64,000 nt of DNA from Cliona cf. orientalis (taxonomy: Eukaryota > Porifera > Demospongiae > Clionaida > Clionaidae): NCBI GenBank assembly GCA_963930775.1, contig OZ005689.1, forward strand, positions 35,914,694 to 35,978,693, in the 5' to 3' direction. Below the pieces are notes generated by a model, which saw only the letters and a program-made list of their open reading frames with translations, ran no database searches and was not told where the DNA came from. A program made the translations under genes and the position numbers. Shown piece by piece: positions 11,005-57,443 of this stretch (position 1 is the first letter of the stretch; every line of letters starts with the position of its first letter).

Positions 11005-11672
11005 GTGACCGGATTTGGGAAAACCCTCCGTATGGGATCCGTGCGCGATTTGCGCAATGCGCATTTTTAGTAGCTCAGGTCGAAATTTGTCAAAGTCCAG
11101 ATTTTGTCATATACATGTCGAACAACCCTTCTTCTAACTGTTGCCGTCTTCTACGGAGGCTAGTCGTGCTATACGAAGGCGAAATAAGCCTTCATTTTGA
11201 TCCACCTAATCAGCACAGCCACCGTACACGGAGCCCGTTGCTATGGGCGGTAATTAGAATTCTCTACCTAGATACAGCTAGATTCATCGATCTACTGTAC
11301 GTTCGCTCACCTTTTTAGCTTCTTGAGCATCTAAGAACAATCGGCTGTCGTTGTCAACAACGAAATTCAACTCTTGCTCGATCTTTACGTTTATTTCGAA
11401 CGGCTCCGCCCAGGTCCATTTAATTGATTTCCGGGTCACGCGTAGTATGCGGAAACGCCATACGTGTGCATAGCAACGCCTTTAGACTGTAATTTCTCGA
11501 TTATTGGGGGTGTGGCACGATTGCAAACAAAGCGCTGTATCTCCACAACCAAGCACACGATCGGCCTAAGACTTGAACGCAGGTTAGCTCTATGGTAGAG
11601 CTTATCAACCACGCATCAAACTCAATTTTCTGAAAAAACTCCCATACGGAGGGTTTTCCCAAATCCGGTCAC
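11005..11672 (+). mobile_element. GTGACCG-family small element, copy A
   Basis: The 668-bp element starts GTGACCGGATTTGGGAAAAC and ends with its inverse. ATAT flanks both sides (11001-11004 and 11673-11676). The long ORF inside is repeated in other copies and is not a gene. Its inner sequence does not match the protein gene of the large DUF7869 elements; only the tips are shared. Confidence 0.85.
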
Positions 11673-13972
11673 ATATATTGTGCACGTGATATTACATCGA
11701 CGTCATGACAAGTCATGCCTTCTGTTACAGAACGGTCTTCCTTTGGAGCCTTGTACACTACTACTGCAACTAAAATCACTATTTCTGTTCATTACTGGTC
11801 AAAATACCGTATAGCAGGAAATTTTCGTATGGTGCTAATTTTCGTATATGTGACCGTCTATGAGAAAACCCGGCATAATCGCTTTATCTTGAAAACTGCG
11901 ATCTCAGCACAATATCATTGCGTGACCTTTGAACTATCTGCCGTTCAAATTTGAGAGCGATCGCCCGCTTTATTTTTGAGATATGACACTTTTTATGCGA
12001 TCGCCTTTGAAATATTAAATTCGCGATCTAAACGCGTTGCTATGGGCGTGAACGATGCTTCCGTATACTATCCGTACTCGCGCGCGCATTGCGCAATGCA
12101 CGGAACGTGCGATTACGTAATCGTCAGCTGACAGAGCTAGCTACATGTAGCTAGCTACACGAACGTACGTAGCAAGCTACTAGCTACACGAGGAAATGAT
12201 CCATTGATCGTCTGTCAATCTAGGTAAGTCCAAGCGATTATGACTGTGATGAAGATATTTTGCACGCGTATTCTAACAAAGCGTTTATACTCCTGCTAGA
12301 AATCTTGCTCGGTCAGACAATGCTGGAGCTGAGGAGGTTGTTCTCAGACGAGTAGCCATCGCCATTGGAGAGGCGAGGTAAGTTATTATAAAAAGGCCAT
12401 AAAATAGCCTTAGAAGCATGCACAGTAATATACAGAGAAGGTGCCAAAGAAGTCACAAAAATAAATAAAAATGATAATAGGCTTGGATCCATTAGTGCCT
12501 CCTCTGGCGTTTTGGAGTTGGTGGGGCACCTGTTGCTGGCTTGGGACAGACAAGGTCACGACAGTTCTCAGGACAGAACTCCCTTATCTTCTCGAATAGG
12601 TATTGTTGTCGTTCGAGGGACAGACCGGGGGGTGCTATCTCTGGGGGTAGATGGTGTGCTTCTGGTTTCCACTCCTCGTCCTGTACCAGTTTGATTTCCC
12701 TTTCAGGACTATCAACGGTGTCTTTGACGAAGACGTACCCAGGTAAACCTCAGGTGGTGCATGGCTTTTATGCCCTTTAGTGCTCGTTGTCGAAAGGGGG
12801 CATCAAAAAATTCAGCCCAGTCATACGTTGGCACTAGTACTCGGCCATCCTGGGTTCCAACAAGCTGTGCGTGGTTCGCCTCGGCCGACTTCTCCACCAC
12901 TCGTGCAATATCATCCAGACATCCAATTTTGGTCCTCCGATACAGCTGTTTAAAAAGACCAAAACACCAATCGGGTGAAAATTTGGTATGTCCGACGATG
13001 AGGAAGGAGAGAGTGATGGATTTATTCAGGCCAGACAAGACACGCCATGCAAGGTATTGCATAACGTATCGATTCTTGTTCTGGCCTGAACAATTGTCTG
13101 CATGCAGGTGGAGGTTGACTTCTCCCAGACTGTGTGTGGCAAGGAAATGGTGGACTATGCTGATGATACTATTGGCCCCCTTTCCTGTATTCACAGCTTC
13201 GTCAATGAGGTAGTTGATCTGTAAAAGGTTAAGTAGGTTCCCTTAATCACATGTGCACCATTGATTTTCTAATTAAATTGCACCTGTCTTGGGATTGCCT
13301 CGCAGCATATTCCGAATATTGCACACTTGCGTGGTGTGAGAAAATAGATGGGACCGGGTTGCTGTGGGTCACTGGGATAGTGCACCTGTACAGTGCATGT
13401 ACATCAGTATTACAGTAATACTGCTAAACTTAGTATCTAACATACTTGCTGTGCCATGTCAAAACTGAAGTGCATGGTGATATTATTGGTTCCAGGTGAC
13501 AGGCATGCACTGATGGGAGGAACTTGAAGCTGGCCAGCGATGGTGAACGTCTCCTTCAGGGACCTCTTTGGAAGCGTCTATCACGCTCCTGTAATAAGAT
13601 CGCTCCTGTGTAGCCAGCTGAAGATGAGCCTGTGCGTCTTTAAGCACCTGATGGTCAGAATGAATGTAAGCCATCCCTTGTATTACTGGTACAGTCTTGT
13701 TACCTGCGTCTTCTCTTCGTCAGGGGTGTTTGCAGCCCTCATAATAGCCATGCTATTTTGCTGGCACACCCAGCATAAATCAGACATAGGCTTCATTACC
13801 ATGATATGCGGGACCAGCTGCCGCCAAAGAGTGCAAAAGGTGCTGTATGCAGCAGCTTTGACGTCTGCCTCATCTGCTGAGAGTTTGTACTCCACCCATA
13901 CAGCCTATTATGTACAGGTACACATGTAAGTATACACTTGCTTAGTGAGAGTGTAGTCATAAATTTATGTAT

Positions 13973-13998
13973 TCTCTCTCTCTCTCTCTCTCTCTCTC
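13973..13998. repeat. (CT)n microsatellite within the transposon
   Basis: The same repeat is present at the equivalent place in copy 2 (about 55987-56015), so it belongs to the element. Confidence 0.9.
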
Positions 13999-14412
13999 GT
14001 TGGATACCTTCTTGGTCGTGCTTGATGGCAACAGCTGCAGGTCGTCACGCTTATAACCTGGAATCCGGCCAGGGAGGAGGATAGCATTCTTCTCTGCGAA
14101 GTTGCTAAGTAACGAGGTTTTTAACCTCGTGTAGCTTCAAAGCATGCTTTGGTACTCTCCTGACATTGCCATGGATCCTCGTTGTCAGCCCCGTGGCGAG
14201 GTAACTAGCTTGAGGGCCATAAAACGGTCTTTCCCTGCAAGGTACATGTAATTAGTAACTGCTGTACAGTGGTGGTCTATGGTTGGCGCAAGTATTCAAG
14301 ACAGAGTGAGATGAGAGATTTAAAGCTAGAGTGGGGTGTGAGTGTGGGTGGGTGGGTCTTTATGTATGTTTTATGCTTGCATGCTGTGTATTCATGTGTG
14401 TATGGCGTGATT

Positions 14413-14413
<1 letters not shown>

Positions 14414-14453
<40 letters not shown>
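14414..14453. repeat. (GT)n microsatellite
   Basis: About 20 GT units, present in copy 1 of the transposon and absent from copy 2. ORFs across it are artefacts of the repeat. Confidence 0.95.
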
Positions 14454-14455
<2 letters not shown>

Positions 14456-16206
14456 AACCTGTAGTCACTACAAAGCGTTTTGGTTGTCCCCATTCCCCAC
14501 ATCAAAGAGAATTCTATACTGAAGGCTTATAGGACTGACATGCCTTGGGTATGCTAGGGAGAACTAGCCTAGGTGTTGTGTATTATACTGTAATACCTAT
14601 TCCATGCAGTTTCTGGAAAGTCTTCCTGCAAATTTGAACTCCTCCATGATAGAAGGCCATGCTGGAGCGCTGTCGTGGTACGGGCTTGGGTGCGATTGTG
14701 TCACTGTTGTTTGCGAGGAGTGCTGCTATCTGGCCAAGGACAAGATCAAGCTCGTCCCTACTAAGCTCGCTGCACTGCATCCTCATACCATCGTAGTGGT
14801 CCCGGGAGAAGAGAGAGGAGCAAGGCTTGCCCTTATTCCTCTTGCACCCGCAACCTTTCTCCAAGAACGCACTAAGGTCAGGGTCTTGGTCTACCTATGT
14901 AGTCACATGCATTGTATGTTAGTTTACGAGGTCCTATAATCACAATGTGAGTGCATGTACCTCTCCCTCCCCTCCCTGTGTATGTGCTTCAGGAGCTGGT
15001 GTTGGTGACTGCTGAGAGGATGAGGGTGTGTGCTCTTGCTGGGAGGGTTCTAAGAGATCTGCTGGGATTTGTCCAGTTAGAGCATCAAGGTCCAACTCCC
15101 TGATGAGTGGGTCGCTGCCACGTTCCTCCTCCTCTTTCTCCTCCTCATGAGCAATTAAATCTACACATGCATTATTTTATTTAACTGTCATTGTTGCTTT
15201 ATAATAATTCTCTTTGTGTACCATTAAACTGGAAGGGTGTGTCTTCTTCCTTGTCTTCATCTAAGAGTAGTGTTAGTCAGATGGTAAGGTGTGGTCGATA
15301 CTGGAAGTTGATAGCTTACCTGGGGAGTCATAGGCAGGGTCATCCCCACAAAAGAATTCATGAATAAAATCTGTGAGGGCGAGGCCATCCCCACTTCCGA
15401 GGTAGGCGAGGCCTTCGCGAGTCAGGGAGTTGAGAGCGCGAGCGCCTTCTCTGTCTCGCGACGTCGACATAGCTCACAAGGAGAAGTCAAGACTTGAGGT
15501 AACCTTCGCTTCAAACGTCTTCAACGCTGTCGTTGCAGGTGGCGTTTCGCGCGCGCGCGCCTTTCAATTAGCGTCCCTAGCAACGTACTCCGTACACTAA
15601 GGTCGCGGAGATGCCGTTCGGCCGACATGACGGCACGTTTGGGCTTATTCTCTTCATTTTATAATAATATATCGAAATCGCGATTTTCACAAGATATGAC
15701 CCATCGCGCTAAAAACGCCCATAGCCATAATAATGTACACTGCAATTATGCCGGGTTTTCTCAAATCCGGTCACATATTTCGTATTTTCCATCCCTTATA
15801 CGAAAATAAAAACTGCGAAAATTTGAACGTACGAAATTTTTTTCCTTTCGCGCGTGATCTTTGACCTATACGCCTACCACAGCCACAAGCGGTCGCTAGC
15901 GGCATGTGCTAAATGCAAGACTAGCTCACTGAACGATGTCTCTTTATCGATTCTTTGCCAAGGCGTTGAAATGAAGTGACCTTTCTGATCCCAGTGGACC
16001 GCTATCGGCGTCGATTACGATCATGGAAGCCAGTGATGCTAGCGTTACCGTATACTGCACGTAAGTACGAGCGCTACCAGCTGCACATGCGCGCAATGTC
16101 CCGCAGCAAGTATACTATTAATTTAAAAAAATGAAAATTTATTCTAAGGGTGTTTTGGCCAATCATACGAAAATTAGCACCAACGAAAATTTCCCGCTAT
16201 ACGGTA

Positions 16207-22845: not shown

Positions 22846-23478
22846 GTGACCGGATTTGGGAAAATCCTCCGTATATGGGATTTTTTCAGAAAATTGAGTT
22901 TGATGCATGGTTGATAAGGTCTACCATAGAGCTAAACTGCGTTCAAGCCTTAGGCCGATCGTGTGCTTGGTTGTGGATATACAGCGCTTTGTTTGCGATT
23001 GCGCCACACCCCCAATAATCGAGAAATTACGGTCTAAAGGAGTTGCTATGCACACGTATGGCGTTTCCGCGTACTACGCGTGACCCAGAAATCAGTGCCA
23101 TTCGAAATGAACATAAAGATCGAGCAAGAGTTGAATTTCGTTGTTGACAGCCGATTGTTCTTAGATGCCCAAGAAGCTAAAAAGGTGAGCAAACGTACAG
23201 TAGATCGATGAATCTAGCTGTATCTAGGTAGAGAATTCTAAGCAACGGGCTCCGTGTACGGCGGCTGTGCCGACTAGGTGGGTCAAAATGAAGGCTTATT
23301 TCGCCTTCGTATAGCATGACTAGCCTCCGTAGAAGACGGCAACAGTTAGAAGGGTTGTTCTACAATGTCATGTATGACAAAATCTGGAATTTGACAAATT
23401 TCGACCTGGGCTACTAAAAACGCGCATTGCACGAATCGCGCGCAGATCCCATACGGAGGGTTTTCCCAAATCCGGTCA
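22846..23478 (-). mobile_element. GTGACCG-family small element, copy B
   Basis: Same family as copy A but in the opposite orientation. ATAT precedes it at 22842-22845. Its right tip has lost one base. Confidence 0.8.
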
Positions 23479-23485
23479 TATATAT

Positions 23486-24137
23486 GTGACCGGATTTGGT
23501 AAAACCCTCCGTAAGGGATCCGCGCCCGATTCGCGTAATGCGCATTTTTAGTAGCTGAGGTCGAAATTTGTCAAAGTCCAGATTTTGTCATACACATGTC
23601 CAACAACCCTTCTTCTAACTGTTGCCGTCTTCTACGGAGGCTAGTCATGCTATACGAAGGCGAAATAAGCCTTCATTTTGACCCACCTAGCAGCCGCCGT
23701 ACACGGAGCCCGTTGCTATGGGCGGTAATTAGAATTCTCTACCTAGATACAGCTAGATTCATCGATCTACTGTACGTTCACTCACCTTTTTAGCTTCTTG
23801 GGCATCTAAGAACAATCGGCTGTCGTTGCCAACAACGAATTGCTCGATCTTTACGTTCATTTCGAATGGCTCCGCCCAGGTCCATTTAATTGATTTCCGG
23901 GTCATGCGTAGTATGCGGAAACGCCATACGCGTGCATAGCAACGCCTTTAGCCCGTAATTTCTCGATTATTGGGGGTGTGGCGCGATCGCAAACAAAGCG
24001 CTGTATCTCCATAACCAAGCACACGATCGGCCTAAGACTTGAACGCGGGTTAGCTCTATGGTAGAGCTTATCAACCATGCATCAAACTCAATTTTCTGAA
24101 AAAATCCCATACGGAGGGTTTTCCCAAATCCGGTCAC
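23486..24137 (+). mobile_element. GTGACCG-family small element, copy C
   Basis: Follows copy B with only ATAT-type bases between them and lies in the opposite orientation, so B and C form a palindrome of about 1.3 kb. The right flank is ACAT against ATAT on the left. Confidence 0.85.
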
Positions 24138-36412: not shown

Positions 36413-37092
36413 GTGACCGCATTTGGGAAAACCCTCTGTAAGGGATCCGCGCGCGATTCGTGCAATGCGTGTTTTCTAGTAGCTCAGGTCGAAATTTGTC
36501 AAAGTCCAGATTTTGTCATAATATTATGTGGTATTTGTCACATATACTTGTCGAACAACCCTTCTTCTAACTGTTGCTGTCTTCTATGGAGGCTAGTTGT
36601 GCTATACGAAGGCGAAATAAGCCTTCATTTTGACCCACCTAGTTGGCACAGCTGCCGTACCCGGAGCCCATTGCTATGGGCGCTAATTGGAGTTCTCTAC
36701 CTAGATACAGCTAGATTTATCCAACTACTGTATGTTTGCTCACCTTTTTAGCTTGCTGGGCATCTAAAAACAATTGGCTGTCGTTGTCAACAACGAAATT
36801 CAACTCTTGCTCGATCTTTACGTTCATTTCAAACGACTCCGCCCATGTCCATTTAATTAATCTCCGGGTCACGTGTAGTATGCGGAAAAGCCATATGCGT
36901 GCATAGCAACGCCTTTAGACCATAGTTTCTTGATTACTGGGGGTGTGGCGTGATCACAAAGTGCTGTATCTCCACAACGAAGCACGTGATCGGCCTAAAA
37001 CTTGAACGCGGGTTAGCTCTATGGACCATACATACATCAAACTGGATTTTCAGAAAAAATTCGTTACGGAGGGTTTTCCCAAATCCAGTCAC
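36413..37092 (+). mobile_element. GTGACCG-family small element, copy D
   Basis: Tips GTGACCGCATTTGGGAAAAC and the inverted GTGACTGGATTTGGGAAAAC. The flanks are ATTT on the left (36409-36412) and GTTT on the right. The interior matches copy A. Confidence 0.8.
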
Positions 37093-37204: not shown

Positions 37205-37822
37205 CATATGACCATCTACGGATCTGTATGCTATTGGCACAGTGCGCATTTCAGTACTTCAGGTCGAAAAATGTCAAAGTCCAGTTTTTGTCACATTTAT
37301 GTCAAAGAACCTTTCTCTACTAACTGTTGCCACTGCCTACAAGAGGGTAGACGTTAGTTATCAAGGCAAAATAAGCCTTCATTTTGACATACCTAGTCAG
37401 TACAGCTGCCGTACATGGAGCCTGTTGCTATGGGTGCCAATTAGAATTCTCTATCTAGGTATAGCTAGATTCATCAAACTACTGTACGTTCGCTCACCTT
37501 GTTAGCTTCTTGGGCATCAAAGAACAATTGGCGACTGTTATCAACATCGAAATCCGACCCTTGCTTGATATTTTTTAAACGGCTCTACCCAGGTCCATTT
37601 TAATTCCTTTCTGGTTCACACGTAGTATTCCGAAATGCCATGCACGTGCATAGCAGCGCCTTTAGATCGTAATTTCTCGATTATTCAGGGTGTGGCGTGA
37701 TCGCAAACAAAGCGCTGTATCTCCACAACCAAGCACACAGTCGGTCTAAAACTTGAACGCGGGTTAGCTCTATTGTAGAGCTTATCATAGAGGCATTAAC
37801 CTCAATTTTCACAAAAGAATCC
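37205..37822 (+). mobile_element. GTGACCG-family small element, copy E (degenerate)
   Basis: The body matches copy A (CTACCTAGATACAGCTAG-like and GGGTTAGCTCTAT blocks) with many changes. The left tip is worn and the right tip is missing, just before the element at 37827. This is the oldest copy by appearance. Confidence 0.7.
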
Positions 37823-37826
37823 AATA

Positions 37827-38244
37827 CCGTAAACTCTGGTTATTAAGCGCACCTCGCTATTAAGCGCACATTATTAAATTTTATTAAGTGCATGCTCTGT
37901 TCTCGTCACAAGCTATTGTTTATTAAGCGCATGCGCTTAATAGGCGTGGCGTTCTATGAACCTGACCTTGACCGGCTGGAAAGTATGTGGAGTCCAGATA
38001 TCTTTGGAGAAATGATGACCATATCATGCAAGAAGATCGAATTTCAGACAAATCGCCAGCACTCATCGTCTTGAGCCGCAGCTGTAAACGCTAAAGCTCT
38101 CGATCGATCGAGCCAGCTAGCGCTGGCGCTAGCGCGAGCGGGCCTCGCATCCATCACGTGCCCAAACGTTTGTGGGCGTGGTTATGTGCTATATAAGCGC
38201 ATATCCTTTATTAAGCGCATGGGCTTATTAACCTGAGTATACGG
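37827..38244. mobile_element. 418-bp element, ends CCGTA and TTATTAAGCGCA repeats
   Basis: TA flanks both sides. The left end reads CCGTAAACTCTGGTTATTAA and the inverted right end CCGTATACTCAGGTTAATAA. Near both ends TTAAGCGCA-type words repeat four or more times, probably binding sites for the protein that moved it. Confidence 0.75.
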
Positions 38245-47425: not shown

Positions 47426-48097
47426 GTGACCGGATCTGAGAAAACCCGGCATATTGTCAAAATGTGCATATGGCACAATGCCCGTTTTTAGTATCAGCAG
47501 TCAAAAAAATATCAAAGTCCAGTTTTTGTCACATTTTTGTCCAATAACCTTTCTCTACTACTAACTGTTGCCACCGCCTACAGAGGGTAAATGTAAGTTA
47601 CCAAGGTGAAATAAGCCTTCATTTGACCTACCTAGTTAGTACGGCTGCCGTACACGGAGCCCGTTGCTATGGGCGCTAATTAGAATTCTCTACCTAGAAA
47701 CAGCTAGATTCATCTAACTACTGTACATTTGCTCACCTTTTTAGCTTCTTGGGCATCTAAGAACAATCGGCGACCGTTATCAACATCGAAATCCAACCCT
47801 TGCTCGATCTTTACATTCATTTCGAACGGCTCCACCCAGGTCCATTAAATTGATTTCCGGTTCACGCGTAGTATACGGAAACGCCATATGCATGCATAGC
47901 AACGCCTTTAAAACGTAATTTCTTGATTTTTGAGGGTGTGGCGCGATCGCAAACGAAGTGCTCTAGCTCCACAGCCAGACGCGCAATGTGTCTCAGACTT
48001 GGAGGCAGGTTAGCCGTATGATGCAGCTATCCAAATATACAGCTAACTAAAATTTCATAGATGGATGAATATGGCGGGTTTTCTCAGATCCGGTCAC
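47426..48097 (+). mobile_element. GTGACCG-family small element, copy F (GAGAAAACCC tips)
   Basis: Tips GTGACCGGATCTGAGAAAAC on both ends, with ATAT on both sides (47422-47425 and 48098-48101). The tips continue into CCGGCATA or CCGCCATA, which is closer to the large DUF7869 elements than to copy A. The interior resembles copy E. Confidence 0.85.
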
Positions 48098-48101
48098 ATA
48101 T

Positions 48102-48986
48102 GGGACTGGATGTGGGAAAACACTCCGTAAGGGATCGGCATGATTCGCACAATGGGCGTTTTTAGTAGCTCAGGTCGAAATTTGTCAAAGTCCAGATTTT
48201 GTCATATACATGTCGAACAACCCTTCTTCTAACTGTTGCCGTCGTCTACAGAGGCTAGTCGTGCTATACAAAGGCGAAATAAGCCTTCATTTTGACCCAC
48301 CTAGTCGGCCCAGCTGCCGTACCCGGAGCCCGTTGCTATGGCCGCTAATTAGAATTCTCTACCTAGATACAGCTAGATTCATCGAACTACTGTACGTTCG
48401 CAGGGGCGTAGCTTAGTTGTTTCTTTGTTGCCCAGAAACTCCCCCCCCCCCTGGCAGTCAGATTCAGTATTATCTTAGTATGATTTAGCCATCAGGAAAC
48501 CCCCTTGGTTTCCAGATTCAATCTCCAGGCCTAAAACCTAGCCTAGATCTCCTCCTTTTATGCTTTTCTCAGCCAAAATCTCGAGAATCTAGCAAAATCT
48601 TGCTGAAAATGGCGATCGTTAATTAGAGGGCATGGCCGAAAAGTGGGCGTGGTCATTAAAATTTTCGCCCGCAACTGCTAGGAAACCCCTCTGAAAATCC
48701 TGGCTATGCCCCTGGTTTGCTCACCTTTTAGCTTCTTGGGCATCTAAGAACAATCAGCGCCCAGGTCTATTTGATTTACGGGTCACGCGTAGTATGCGGA
48801 AACTCTATACGTGTTCATAGCAACGCCTTTAGACCGTAATTTCTCGATTATTGGGGGTGTGGCGCAATCGCAAACAAAACGCTGTATCTCCACAACGAAG
48901 CATGCGACCGGCCCAAGACTTGAACGCGGGTTAGCTCTATGGTTGAGCTTATCAGCCATGCATCAAACTCAATTTTCAGAATCCGA
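48102..48986 (+). mobile_element. GTGACCG-family small element, copy G, interrupted
   Basis: Adjoins copy F. The left tip is worn (GGGACTGGATGTGGGAAAAC). The interior is split at 48401-48714 by another element and resumes at CTCACCTTTTAGCTTC. The right tip is replaced by the element starting at 48987. Confidence 0.75.
48401..48714. mobile_element. CAGGGGCGTAGC-ended element inside copy G
   Basis: Ends CAGGGGCGTAGCTTAG and the inverted CAGGGGCATAGCCAGG. Flanks GTTCG and GTTTG fit a 5-bp target duplication with one change. Non-coding, 314 bp. Confidence 0.8.
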
Positions 48987-53870: not shown

Positions 53871-55983
53871 GTGACCGTCTATGAGAAAACCCGGTATAAT
53901 TGATTTTTCTTGAAAACTGCGATCTCAGCACAATATCATTGCATGACCTTTGAACTATCTGCCGTTCAAATTTGAAAGCGATCGCCCGCTTTATTTTTGA
54001 GATATGACACTTTTTATGCGCTCGCCCTTGAAAATTTTAAATTCGAGAAATTACGATCTAAACGCATTGCTATGGGCGTGAACGATGCTTCCATATACTA
54101 TCCGTACTCGCGCGTTTATTGCACAATGCGCGGAACGTGCGAATACGTAATCGTCAGCTGACAGAGCCAGCTAGCAAGCTACTAGCTACACGAGGGAATG
54201 ATCCATTGATCATTTGACAATCTAGGTAAGTCCAAGCGATTATGACTGTTATGAAGATATTTTGCACGCGTATTCTAACAAAGCGTTTATACTACTGCTA
54301 GAAATCGTGCTCGATCAGACAATTGCTGGAGGTGAGGAGGTGGTTCTCAGACGAGTAGCCATCGCCATTGGAGAGGCGAGGTAAGTTGTTATAAAAAGGC
54401 CACAAAATAGCTTCAGAAGCATGCATAGTTAAACAGAGAAGGTGCCAAAGAAGTCACAAAAATAAATAAAAATTATAATAGGCTTGGATCCATTAGTGCC
54501 TCTGGCATTAAATTTTTGGGGTTGGTGGGGCACCTGTTGCTGGCTTGGGACAAACAACATCATGACAGTCCACAGGACAGAATTCCCTTATCTTTTCGAA
54601 TAGGTACTGTTATCGTTCGAGGGACAGACCGGGGGGTGGGGTGTTATCACTGGGGGTTGATGGTGTGCTTCTGGTTTCCACTCCTCGTCCTGTACCAGTT
54701 TGATCACCCTTTCAGGACTATCAACACTGTCTTTGACAAAGACATACCCAGGTTTGGTGTTGGTAAACCTCAGGTGGTGCATTGCGTTCATGCCCTTGAG
54801 TGCTTGTTGTCAAAAGGGGGCATCAAAAAATTCAGCCCAGTCATGTTGGCACTAGTACTTGGCCATCCTGGGTTCCAACAAGCTGTGCGTGATTCGCCTC
54901 GGCCGACTTCTCCACCACTCGTGCAATATCATCCAGACATCCAATTTTGGTCCTCCGATAGAGCTGTTTAAAAAGACCAAAACACCAGTCGGGTGAAAAT
55001 TTGGTGTGTCCTACGATGAAGAAGGAGAGAGTGATGGATTTATTCAGGCCAGACAAGATACACCATGCAAGGTATTGCATAACGTATCGGTTCTTGTTCT
55101 GGCCTGAACAATTGTCTGCGTGCAGGTGGAGGTTGACTTCTCCCAGACTGTGTGTTGCAAGGAAATGGTGGACCATGCTGATAATACTATTAGCCCCCTT
55201 CCCTGTATTCACAGCTTCGTCAATGAGGTAGTTGATCTGTAAAAGGTTAAGTACATGTAGGTTCCCTTAATCAGATGTGCACCATTGATTTTCTAATTAA
55301 ATTGCACCTGTCTTGGGATTGCCTCGCAGCATATTCCGAATATAGCACACTTGCGTGGTGTGAGGAAATAGATGGGACCTGGTTGCTGTGGGTCACTGGG
55401 GTAGTGCACCTGTACAGTGCATGTACGTCAGTATTACCGTAATACTGCTAAACTTAGTATCTACTGTGCCATGTCAAAACAGAAGTGCATGGGGATATTA
55501 TTGGTTCCAGGTGACATGCATGCACTGATGGGAGGAACTTGAAGCTGGCCAGCGATGGTAAACGTCTCCTTCAGGACCTCCTTGGAAGCGTCTATCACGC
55601 TCCTGTAATAAGATCGCTCCTGTGTGGCCAGGTGAAGATGAGCCTCTGCATCTTTAAGCACCTGATGGTCAGAATGAATGTAAGCCATCCCTTGTATTAC
55701 TGGTACAGTCTTGTTACCTGTGTCTTCTCTGCTTCAGGGGTGTTTGCAGCCCTCATAATAGCCATGCTGTTTAGCTGGCACACCCAGCATAAATCAGACA
55801 TAGGCTTCATCACCATGATATGCAGAACCAGCTGCCGCCAAAGAGTGCAAAAGGTGCTGTATGCAGCGGCTTTGATGTCTGCCTCGTCTGCTGAGAGTTT
55901 GTACTCCACCCATACCGCCTATTATGCACAGGTACACATGTAAGTATACATTTGCTTACTGAGAGTGCAGTCATTACTTTTTT

Positions 55984-56018
<35 letters not shown>

Positions 56019-57443
56019 TGGATACCTTCTTGGTCGTGTTTGATGGCAACAGCTGCAGATCATCACGCTTATAATCTGGAATCCGGCCAGGGAGGAGGAT
56101 AGCATTCTTCTCTGCGAAGTTACTAAGGAAAGTGATGAGATTTTTAACCTCGTCGAGCTTCAAAAGCATGCTTTGGTATTCTCCTGATATTGCCGTGGAT
56201 CCTGGTTGTCAGCCTCGTGTCGAGGTAACTAGCTTTGAGGACCAAAAACAGTCTTTCCCTGCAAGGTACATGCAATTAGTAACTGCTGTACAGCGGTGGT
56301 CTATGGTGGTGTGGGTATTCAAGACAGAGATGAGAGATTGAAAGCTAGAAGCATGTGTGCATGTGGGGTGAGTATGGGTGGTTGGCTGGATGGGTCTTTT
56401 TATGTGTTTTATTATACCGTAATACCTACTCCATGCAGTTTCTGGAAAGTCTTCCTGCAAATCTGAACTCCATGATAGAAGGCCATGCTGGAGCGCTCTC
56501 GTGGTAGGGGCTTGGGTGTGATTGTGTCGCTGTTGTTTGCGAGGAGTGCTGCTATCTGGCCAAGGAGGACAAGATCGAGCTCGTCCCTACTAAGCTCCCT
56601 GCACTGCATCCTCATACTGTTGTAGTGGTCCCGGGAGAAGAGAGAGGAGCAATTGTGTCGCTGTTGTTTGCGAGGAGTGCTGCTATCTGGCCAAGGAGGA
56701 CAAGATCAAGCTCGTCCCTACTAAACTCCCTGATGAGTGGGTCGCCGCCACGTTCCTCCTCCTCTTTCTCCTCATGAGCATTAAAATCTACACATGCATT
56801 ATTTATTTAACTTCTGTTGTTGCTTTATAATAAATTCTGTTTGTGTACCATTAAACTGAAAGGGTGTGTCTTCTTCCTTGTCTTCATCTAAGAGTAGTGT
56901 TAGTCAGGTGGTAAGGTGTGGTCAATACTGGAAGTTGATGGCTTACCTGTAGAGTCATAGGCAGGGTCATCCCCACAAAAGAAGTCATGAATAAAAGGGG
57001 CCATCAGCACTTGCGAGGTAGGCGAGGCCTTCGCGAGTGAGGGAGTTGAGAGCGCGAGCGTCTTCTCTGTCTTGCGATGTCGACATAGCTCACAAGGAGA
57101 AGTCAAAATTTGAGGTAACCTTCGTTTCAAAAGTCTTCAACGCTGTTGTTGCAGGTGGCATTTCGCGCGCTCGCGCCTTTCAATTAGCGTCCCTAGCAAT
57201 GTATCTCCGTACACTATGGTTGCGGAGATGCCGTTTGGCCGACATGACAGCACGTTTGGGCTTATTCTGCCCTTTCTGTCGAAGACTGCCGTCTATAACG
57301 CCTACACTGCATAGACAAAAGGTTAATCTCTTCATTTATACCGAAATCGCGATTTTCATAAGGTATGACCCGTCGCGCTAAAAACGCCCATAGCCATAAT
57401 AATGTACACTGCAATTATGCCGGGTTTTCTCAAATCCGGTCAC
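53871..57443 (-). mobile_element. DUF7869-type DNA transposon, copy 2 (3.6 kb)
   Basis: Tips GTGACCGTCTATGAGAAAAC and inverted GTGACCGGATTTGAGAAAAC, with ATTT duplicated exactly on both sides (53867-53870 and 57444-57447). Co-linear with copy 1 apart from loss of the GT microsatellite and a rearranged exon near 56520-56740. It begins 26 bases after the element at 53513. Confidence 0.85.
54516..57086 (-). pseudogene. DUF7869-like transposase candidate, copy 2
   Basis: Same exon series as copy 1, from ATG 57086. The main exon (55212-54841 and onward) has NLHLHADNCSGQNKNRYVMQ and SLSFFIVGHTKFSPDWCFG. The Cys-rich exon is damaged: the stretch 56520-56605 recurs at 56650-56730, and about 270 bases found in copy 1 (14826-15090) are missing. 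The CGCKRNKGKPC block is therefore lost. A stop or shift near 54840 also breaks the C-terminal half. The remaining C-terminus (VFVKDSVDSPERVIKLVQDE) reads well. By eye it is over 90 percent identical to copy 1 in DNA. Confidence 0.6.

Follow-up and report, generated by a model that had tools for sequence, protein, structure and literature searches.

The Sola superfamily of DNA transposons and, with it, Sola2 were reportedly described in 2009. A published survey gives Sola elements a transposase with an Asp-Asp-Asp (DDD) triad, 4-bp target duplications, ends of 11–1124 bp, a size mostly of 2–9 kb and an occurrence in bacteria and metazoans (PMC10741241), and a second account reports AWWT duplications, including ATAT, AAAT and ATTT, for the Sola2 elements of Dictyostelids (PMC3627910). 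Here, we describe a transposon family of the sponge Cliona cf. orientalis, represented in a stretch of 64,000 nucleotides (the window, C1:35914694–35978693 of the 216.8-Mb genome to which all genome-wide counts refer) by two elements that each enclose a gene for a protein with the DUF7869 domain. The anatomy of the elements, the length and target preference of their duplications, one exact empty site, the predicted fold of the protein and its conserved triad were computed directly. Taken together, these data make it likely that we are dealing with a cut-and-paste DNA transposon family, most probably Sola2, in which DUF7869 lies in an RNase H-like nuclease core with a DDD triad.

Both gene-bearing copies have GTGACCG at each end, and the positions and exact flanks given for them in an earlier note on this DNA were verified: copy 1 lies on the minus strand at 11850–15774 between two ATAT target duplications (11846–11849 and 15775–15778), and copy 2, also on the minus strand, at 53871–57443 between two ATTT words. 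The inverted ends are identical at 29 of 33 bp in copy 1 and at 28 of 32 bp in copy 2, and the two copies share 85–93% identity in aligned pieces. The window contains 13 occurrences of GTGACCG where 3.6 are expected, and none of 100 shuffles reaches 13. In both copies the DUF7869 gene is split by introns and runs on the minus strand. The N-terminal exon of copy 1 (14595–14876) was located by tblastn of two relatives, P0001 and P0062, the latter from Halichondria panicea; the upstream exons at 13275–13901, found with residues 328–498 of P0062, contain the stretch with the first Asp (HFSFDMAQQ), and the exon at 12742–13221 encodes the predicted catalytic region with the second and third Asp, sharing 61% identity with P0062 over 160 columns. 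This exon matches the Pfam domain PF25273 (E 2.3e-17), so that the earlier note assigned the domain correctly. In copy 1 the gene shows a change of frame near 13560, absent from copy 2, and copy 2 is devoid of stretches that copy 1 has, so both window genes are probably broken.

We then considered DUF7869 gene loci across the genome, examining the ends of 17 of them, namely the two window copies, L085–L091, six copies of the L029 family, whose ends were found by comparing copies, and two copies of a third family (on C14 and C10). Both tips were recognised in 12 loci (one tip with its first base changed) and a single tip in five, so that none of the 17 end regions lacks both; DUF7869 genes lying without tips, which would have spoken against the earlier note, were thus not met with among these loci. 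Identical 4-bp flanks enclose nine of the 12 two-tipped copies (both window copies, L085, L087, L091, both C12 copies, the C13 copy with ATGT and the third-family C14 copy with GTAT). The tips, which all begin with GTGA, define four families: GTGACCG marks the window family, GTGACAG L091, GTGAAGG the L029 family and GTGAACG the third. L085 shares its ends with the window family, with ATAT on both sides and 88–89% identity, and L087 is 69–77% identical to the window family in aligned pieces and flanked by AAAT on both sides. The L029 protein shares 18% identity with P0001 overall in the alignment and 29% over a core stretch of 249 residues, and because it is so distant the element design is common to deeply diverged families. 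Gene-bearing elements measure 2.5–4.2 kb (L091, window, L087) with inverted ends of 32–34 bp, and in L091 and the L029 family one long open frame occupies most of the element. Five near-identical copies of the L029 family (C10:3521757, C12:1152572, C12:3968119, C14:6119493 and C14:7342564) contain a 699-aa open frame with no stops, as in an apparently young family. A generic inverted-repeat scan of L009–L038 gave clear ends for L038 only, and the rest of this set stands outside the count of 17; within it, L009 (C4:4467771) and L014 (C7:3846099) are split genes on other contigs and are among the strongest Pfam matches in the genome.

The target duplication was measured on a sample blind to the flanks, obtained by searching the tip GTGACCGGATTTGRGAAAAC alone (840 sites) and taking 73 of the first 75 of 100 listed places. 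In a first round, 58 rows yielded 40 pairs, 32 of them with identical 4-bp flanks, while pairs made across copies match in 37%; since some first-round pairs had a right end in common, a recount used each end once and left 38 pairs. Flanks are identical at 4 bp in 31 of these, at 2 bp in 25, at 6 bp in three and at 1, 3, 5, 7 or 8 bp in none, and 20000 shuffles of the right flanks gave a mean of 15.7 identical pairs at 4 bp and a maximum of 25. The 31 identical pairs read ATAT (21), ATTT (four), AAAT (four) or AATT (two), that is, AWWT in every case, and the two words of each of the seven non-identical pairs are one base apart. ATGT and GTAT duplications were met once each, in other GTGA-tipped families. 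For copy 1 an empty site was found in L073, where positions 1775–1942 align with both flanks (89% over 169 columns) and contain a single ATAT; the insertion thus equals the element plus 4 bp at this sole clean empty site, whereas a different insertion length would have spoken against the earlier note. Three further candidates were not counted: the alignments of L042 with the window and of L069 with L091 have gaps of 1–4 bp close to the junction, and the junction of a nested insertion in L072 is ambiguous. The elements produce a 4-bp target duplication and prefer AWWT (ATAT, ATTT, AAAT, AATT); the earlier proposal of a DNA transposase with a defined target and a large non-autonomous progeny is supported, with AWWT in place of ATNT as the target.

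The predicted fold of the DUF7869 protein has an RNase H-like core that resembles Mos1 and retroviral integrases; among transposases, Mos1, likewise a DDD enzyme, has the nearest fold. Three Asp residues occupy the RNase H-like positions (D369, D448 and D490 in the database relative P0001) and are invariant in 14 aligned proteins, and weak winged-helix profile matches precede the core (Cdc6_C, about 0.09; RFX, 0.016 in P0016). A profile search of sequences in the PDB returned chance-level matches only. Relatives are numerous, with 550 and 736 matches in two protein searches that possibly overlap; in viral contigs none of 18 pattern matches was confirmed, and plasmids gave no match to the protein of Desulfocicer vacuolatum described below. 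The view of the DUF7869 protein as a DNA transposase is well supported, its catalysis being predicted from the modelled fold and the triad.

A scan of prokaryote genomes identified 13 loci, including one in the isolate Desulfocicer vacuolatum DSM 3385. Their best segments share 32–49% identity with P0001, more than 460 residues of which are matched in 10 of the 13; for the Desulfocicer protein, the identity to P0001 amounts to 36% over 590 columns. Among genomes sampled from the order of Desulfocicer, a match was present in five of 146, three of which were already among the 13 loci. Paired inverted ends surround the gene in eight loci, the pair of L104 being the least certain; no convincing pair was recognised in L102, L103, L106 and L108, and L100, cut by the edge of its record, was outside the end scan. 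When the boundary is set post hoc, so that the ends begin with GG (GA in L104), each of the 16 flanks of these elements reads ANNT and 15 read AWWT. The 120 listed relatives of the Desulfocicer protein, where named, are called hypothetical protein, save one chaperonin and one that was unreadable. P0258 of Candidatus Magnetoglobus multicellularis, a DUF7869 protein called chaperonin in public records, is probably misannotated. Bacterial and metagenomic sequences commonly encode DUF7869 proteins (L096–L108; P0241–P0360), and many of the listed metagenome contigs are about 2.0–2.5 kb long, near the size of one bacterial element.

The window also contains small non-autonomous elements, seven of which had been listed with the same tips and flanks. 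Three do have exact 4-bp flanks, ATAT on both sides, at 11005–11672, 22846–23479 (inverted with respect to the former, its right tip one base off) and 47426–48097. At 23486–24137 (ATAT/ACAT) and 36413–37092 (ATTT/GTTT) the flanks differ, and two elements are decayed with the second tip unrecognised: one at 37220–37827, named at 37205 in the earlier list and 81% identical to the element at 11005, and one at 48102–48981, which bears an insertion and adjoins the element at 47426, an ATAT being common to both neighbours. The element at 47426, 672 bp long, aligns colinearly with the two ends of the gene-bearing L087, its bases 1–80 and 217–256 corresponding to the last 261 bp and its bases 446–504 and 642–672 to the first 227 bp, which supports the origin of the small elements as internal-deletion derivatives. 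Given the ends and flanks that they have in common with the gene-bearing copies, they may be moved by the DUF7869 enzyme. ATNTGTGACCG has 880+877 occurrences in the genome, compared with 271+275 for the reversed pattern, and the corresponding counts for GTGACCGGATTTGRGAAAAC are 425+415 and 0+0; the small copies of this jumping-gene family number in the hundreds. The small elements at 22846–24137 and at 47426–48981 adjoin and share, or nearly share, an ATAT, as if new copies enter old duplicated targets. A 677-bp element with GTGACCCTCCACGAG tips and ATAT on both sides, present at L089:2251–2927 and L090:4270–4946, represents a further non-autonomous family. Of the 100 places listed among the 840 tip sites, the first 17.5 Mb of C1 contain 10 and the 2.9 Mb that follow contain 90, and many PF25273 matches are likewise located past 16.6 Mb; the right-hand part of C1, starting near 17.5 Mb, could be a compartment rich in transposons or reflect an artefact of assembly.

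From these data we infer catalysis, a cutting pattern, movement in trans and membership of Sola2. The enzyme would bind the GTGA-tipped inverted ends, cut the element out and join it to an AWWT site with a 4-bp stagger, and gap filling would then create the direct repeat of 4 bp. Short derivatives with internal deletions but intact ends would be moved in trans. Several observations weigh against a DUF7869 transposase of the Sola2 type. Both window genes look broken, the fetched stretch contained a single tip at L086, L088, L089, L090 and the C10 copy of the L029 family, and three of the 12 two-tipped copies have no 4-bp repeat (both C14 copies of the L029 family and the third-family C10 copy). 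Identical 4-bp flanks enclose only three of the eight bacterial elements (L096 AAAT, L101 AATT, L107 ATTT), and since about three in eight could match by chance, the words being so few, a bacterial 4-bp duplication is not established. No Foldseek match of the predicted fold reached E 0.001, and E414 is as invariant as the three Asp, so that the triad is an assignment from fold position. Finally, the likeness to Sola2 is one to published descriptions of the elements.

The broken genes and lost tips would also suit a passenger or captured gene in elements moved by another enzyme. This explanation is extremely improbable, as four families that differ in their tips and have divergent proteins each enclose a DUF7869 gene within their own ends, a single open frame takes up most of the element in L091 and the L029 family, and the predicted fold and triad resemble those of a transposase. 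Nor is it credible that the 4-bp flanks belong to the inverted ends as an invariant, palindromic outer portion: ATAT reads the same on both strands and is the most frequent left flank (24 of 38), but the four ATTT and four AAAT pairs are direct and not inverted, the observed number of identical pairs exceeds the shuffle maximum, and the empty site retains one ATAT. A more serious alternative, which we nonetheless regard as unlikely, is that of a DDD transposon with 4-bp AWWT duplications distinct from Sola2, DUF7869 then defining a separate, undescribed superfamily of bacteria and animals. In its favour, NCBIfam has no model that matches either P0001 or the protein of Desulfocicer, Pfam lists PF25273 as a domain of unknown function, and the literature searched, in the parts available and with most subscription journals outside its coverage, contains no mention of DUF7869 and no statement equating it with the Sola transposase. 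Against it, the DDD triad, the 4-bp AWWT duplication, the element size and the occurrence in bacteria and metazoans fit the published Sola and Sola2 descriptions (PMC10741241, PMC3627910), and the opinion of the earlier note that the class is undescribed is therefore probably wrong. It is similarly doubtful that the family constitutes an independent superfamily uniting bacterial insertion sequences with animal transposons under one AWWT 4-bp rule, with a catalytic core in common with ISAzo13; in that case, the bacterial members, now annotated as hypothetical proteins, would amount to a family of insertion sequences not yet recognised.

What seems new is DUF7869 as the putative catalytic domain of this transposase, together with its bacterial relatives without names. 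The result would assign a function to a domain that Pfam lists as unknown and that occurs in hundreds of proteins, and uncharacterised or hypothetical genes in sponges, molluscs and bacteria would become recognisable as genes of mobile elements. The bacterial branch would make the enzyme open to study with ordinary tools, and the sponge L029 family, with its five near-identical open frames, is also pointed to.

Among known systems, Kolobok and piggyBac produce 4-bp duplications, as here, with TTAA as target, unlike here; they were ruled out, TTAA being found in none of the 38 pairs. Ginger elements also have 4-bp duplications. Their core is a Gypsy-type integrase (PMC10741241), and they were ruled out because hmmscan of 14 proteins at E 0.1 detected no integrase-core family, while a very distant kinship of fold may exist. 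Tc1/mariner, which includes the nearest transposase fold, makes a 2-bp TA duplication (PMC10741241), and was ruled out by the 4-bp AWWT duplication and the empty site exact at 4 bp. The DDE domain of ISAzo13 (PF07592) overlaps DUF7869 in five of the 14 scanned proteins, all five chosen beforehand for that domain and two of them passing the Pfam cut-off; it was not matched in the seven other proteins scanned, the Desulfocicer protein or P0195, and the NCBIfam model of ISAzo13 stays far below its threshold (E 0.016, 14 bits against a cut-off of 200). Sola remains closest: the 4-bp duplication recurs here (31 of 38 pairs, none at 5 bp, one exact empty site), as does a DDD transposase in the form of a predicted triad, and the size and end ranges in the published Sola description cover the 2.5–4.2 kb and 32–34 bp of our elements (PMC10741241). 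The Sola2 elements of Dictyostelids have shorter inverted ends, of 12–21 bp (PMC3627910). Their AWWT duplications are found here in 31 of 31 identical pairs, and on the strength of the published description the family most likely belongs to Sola2.
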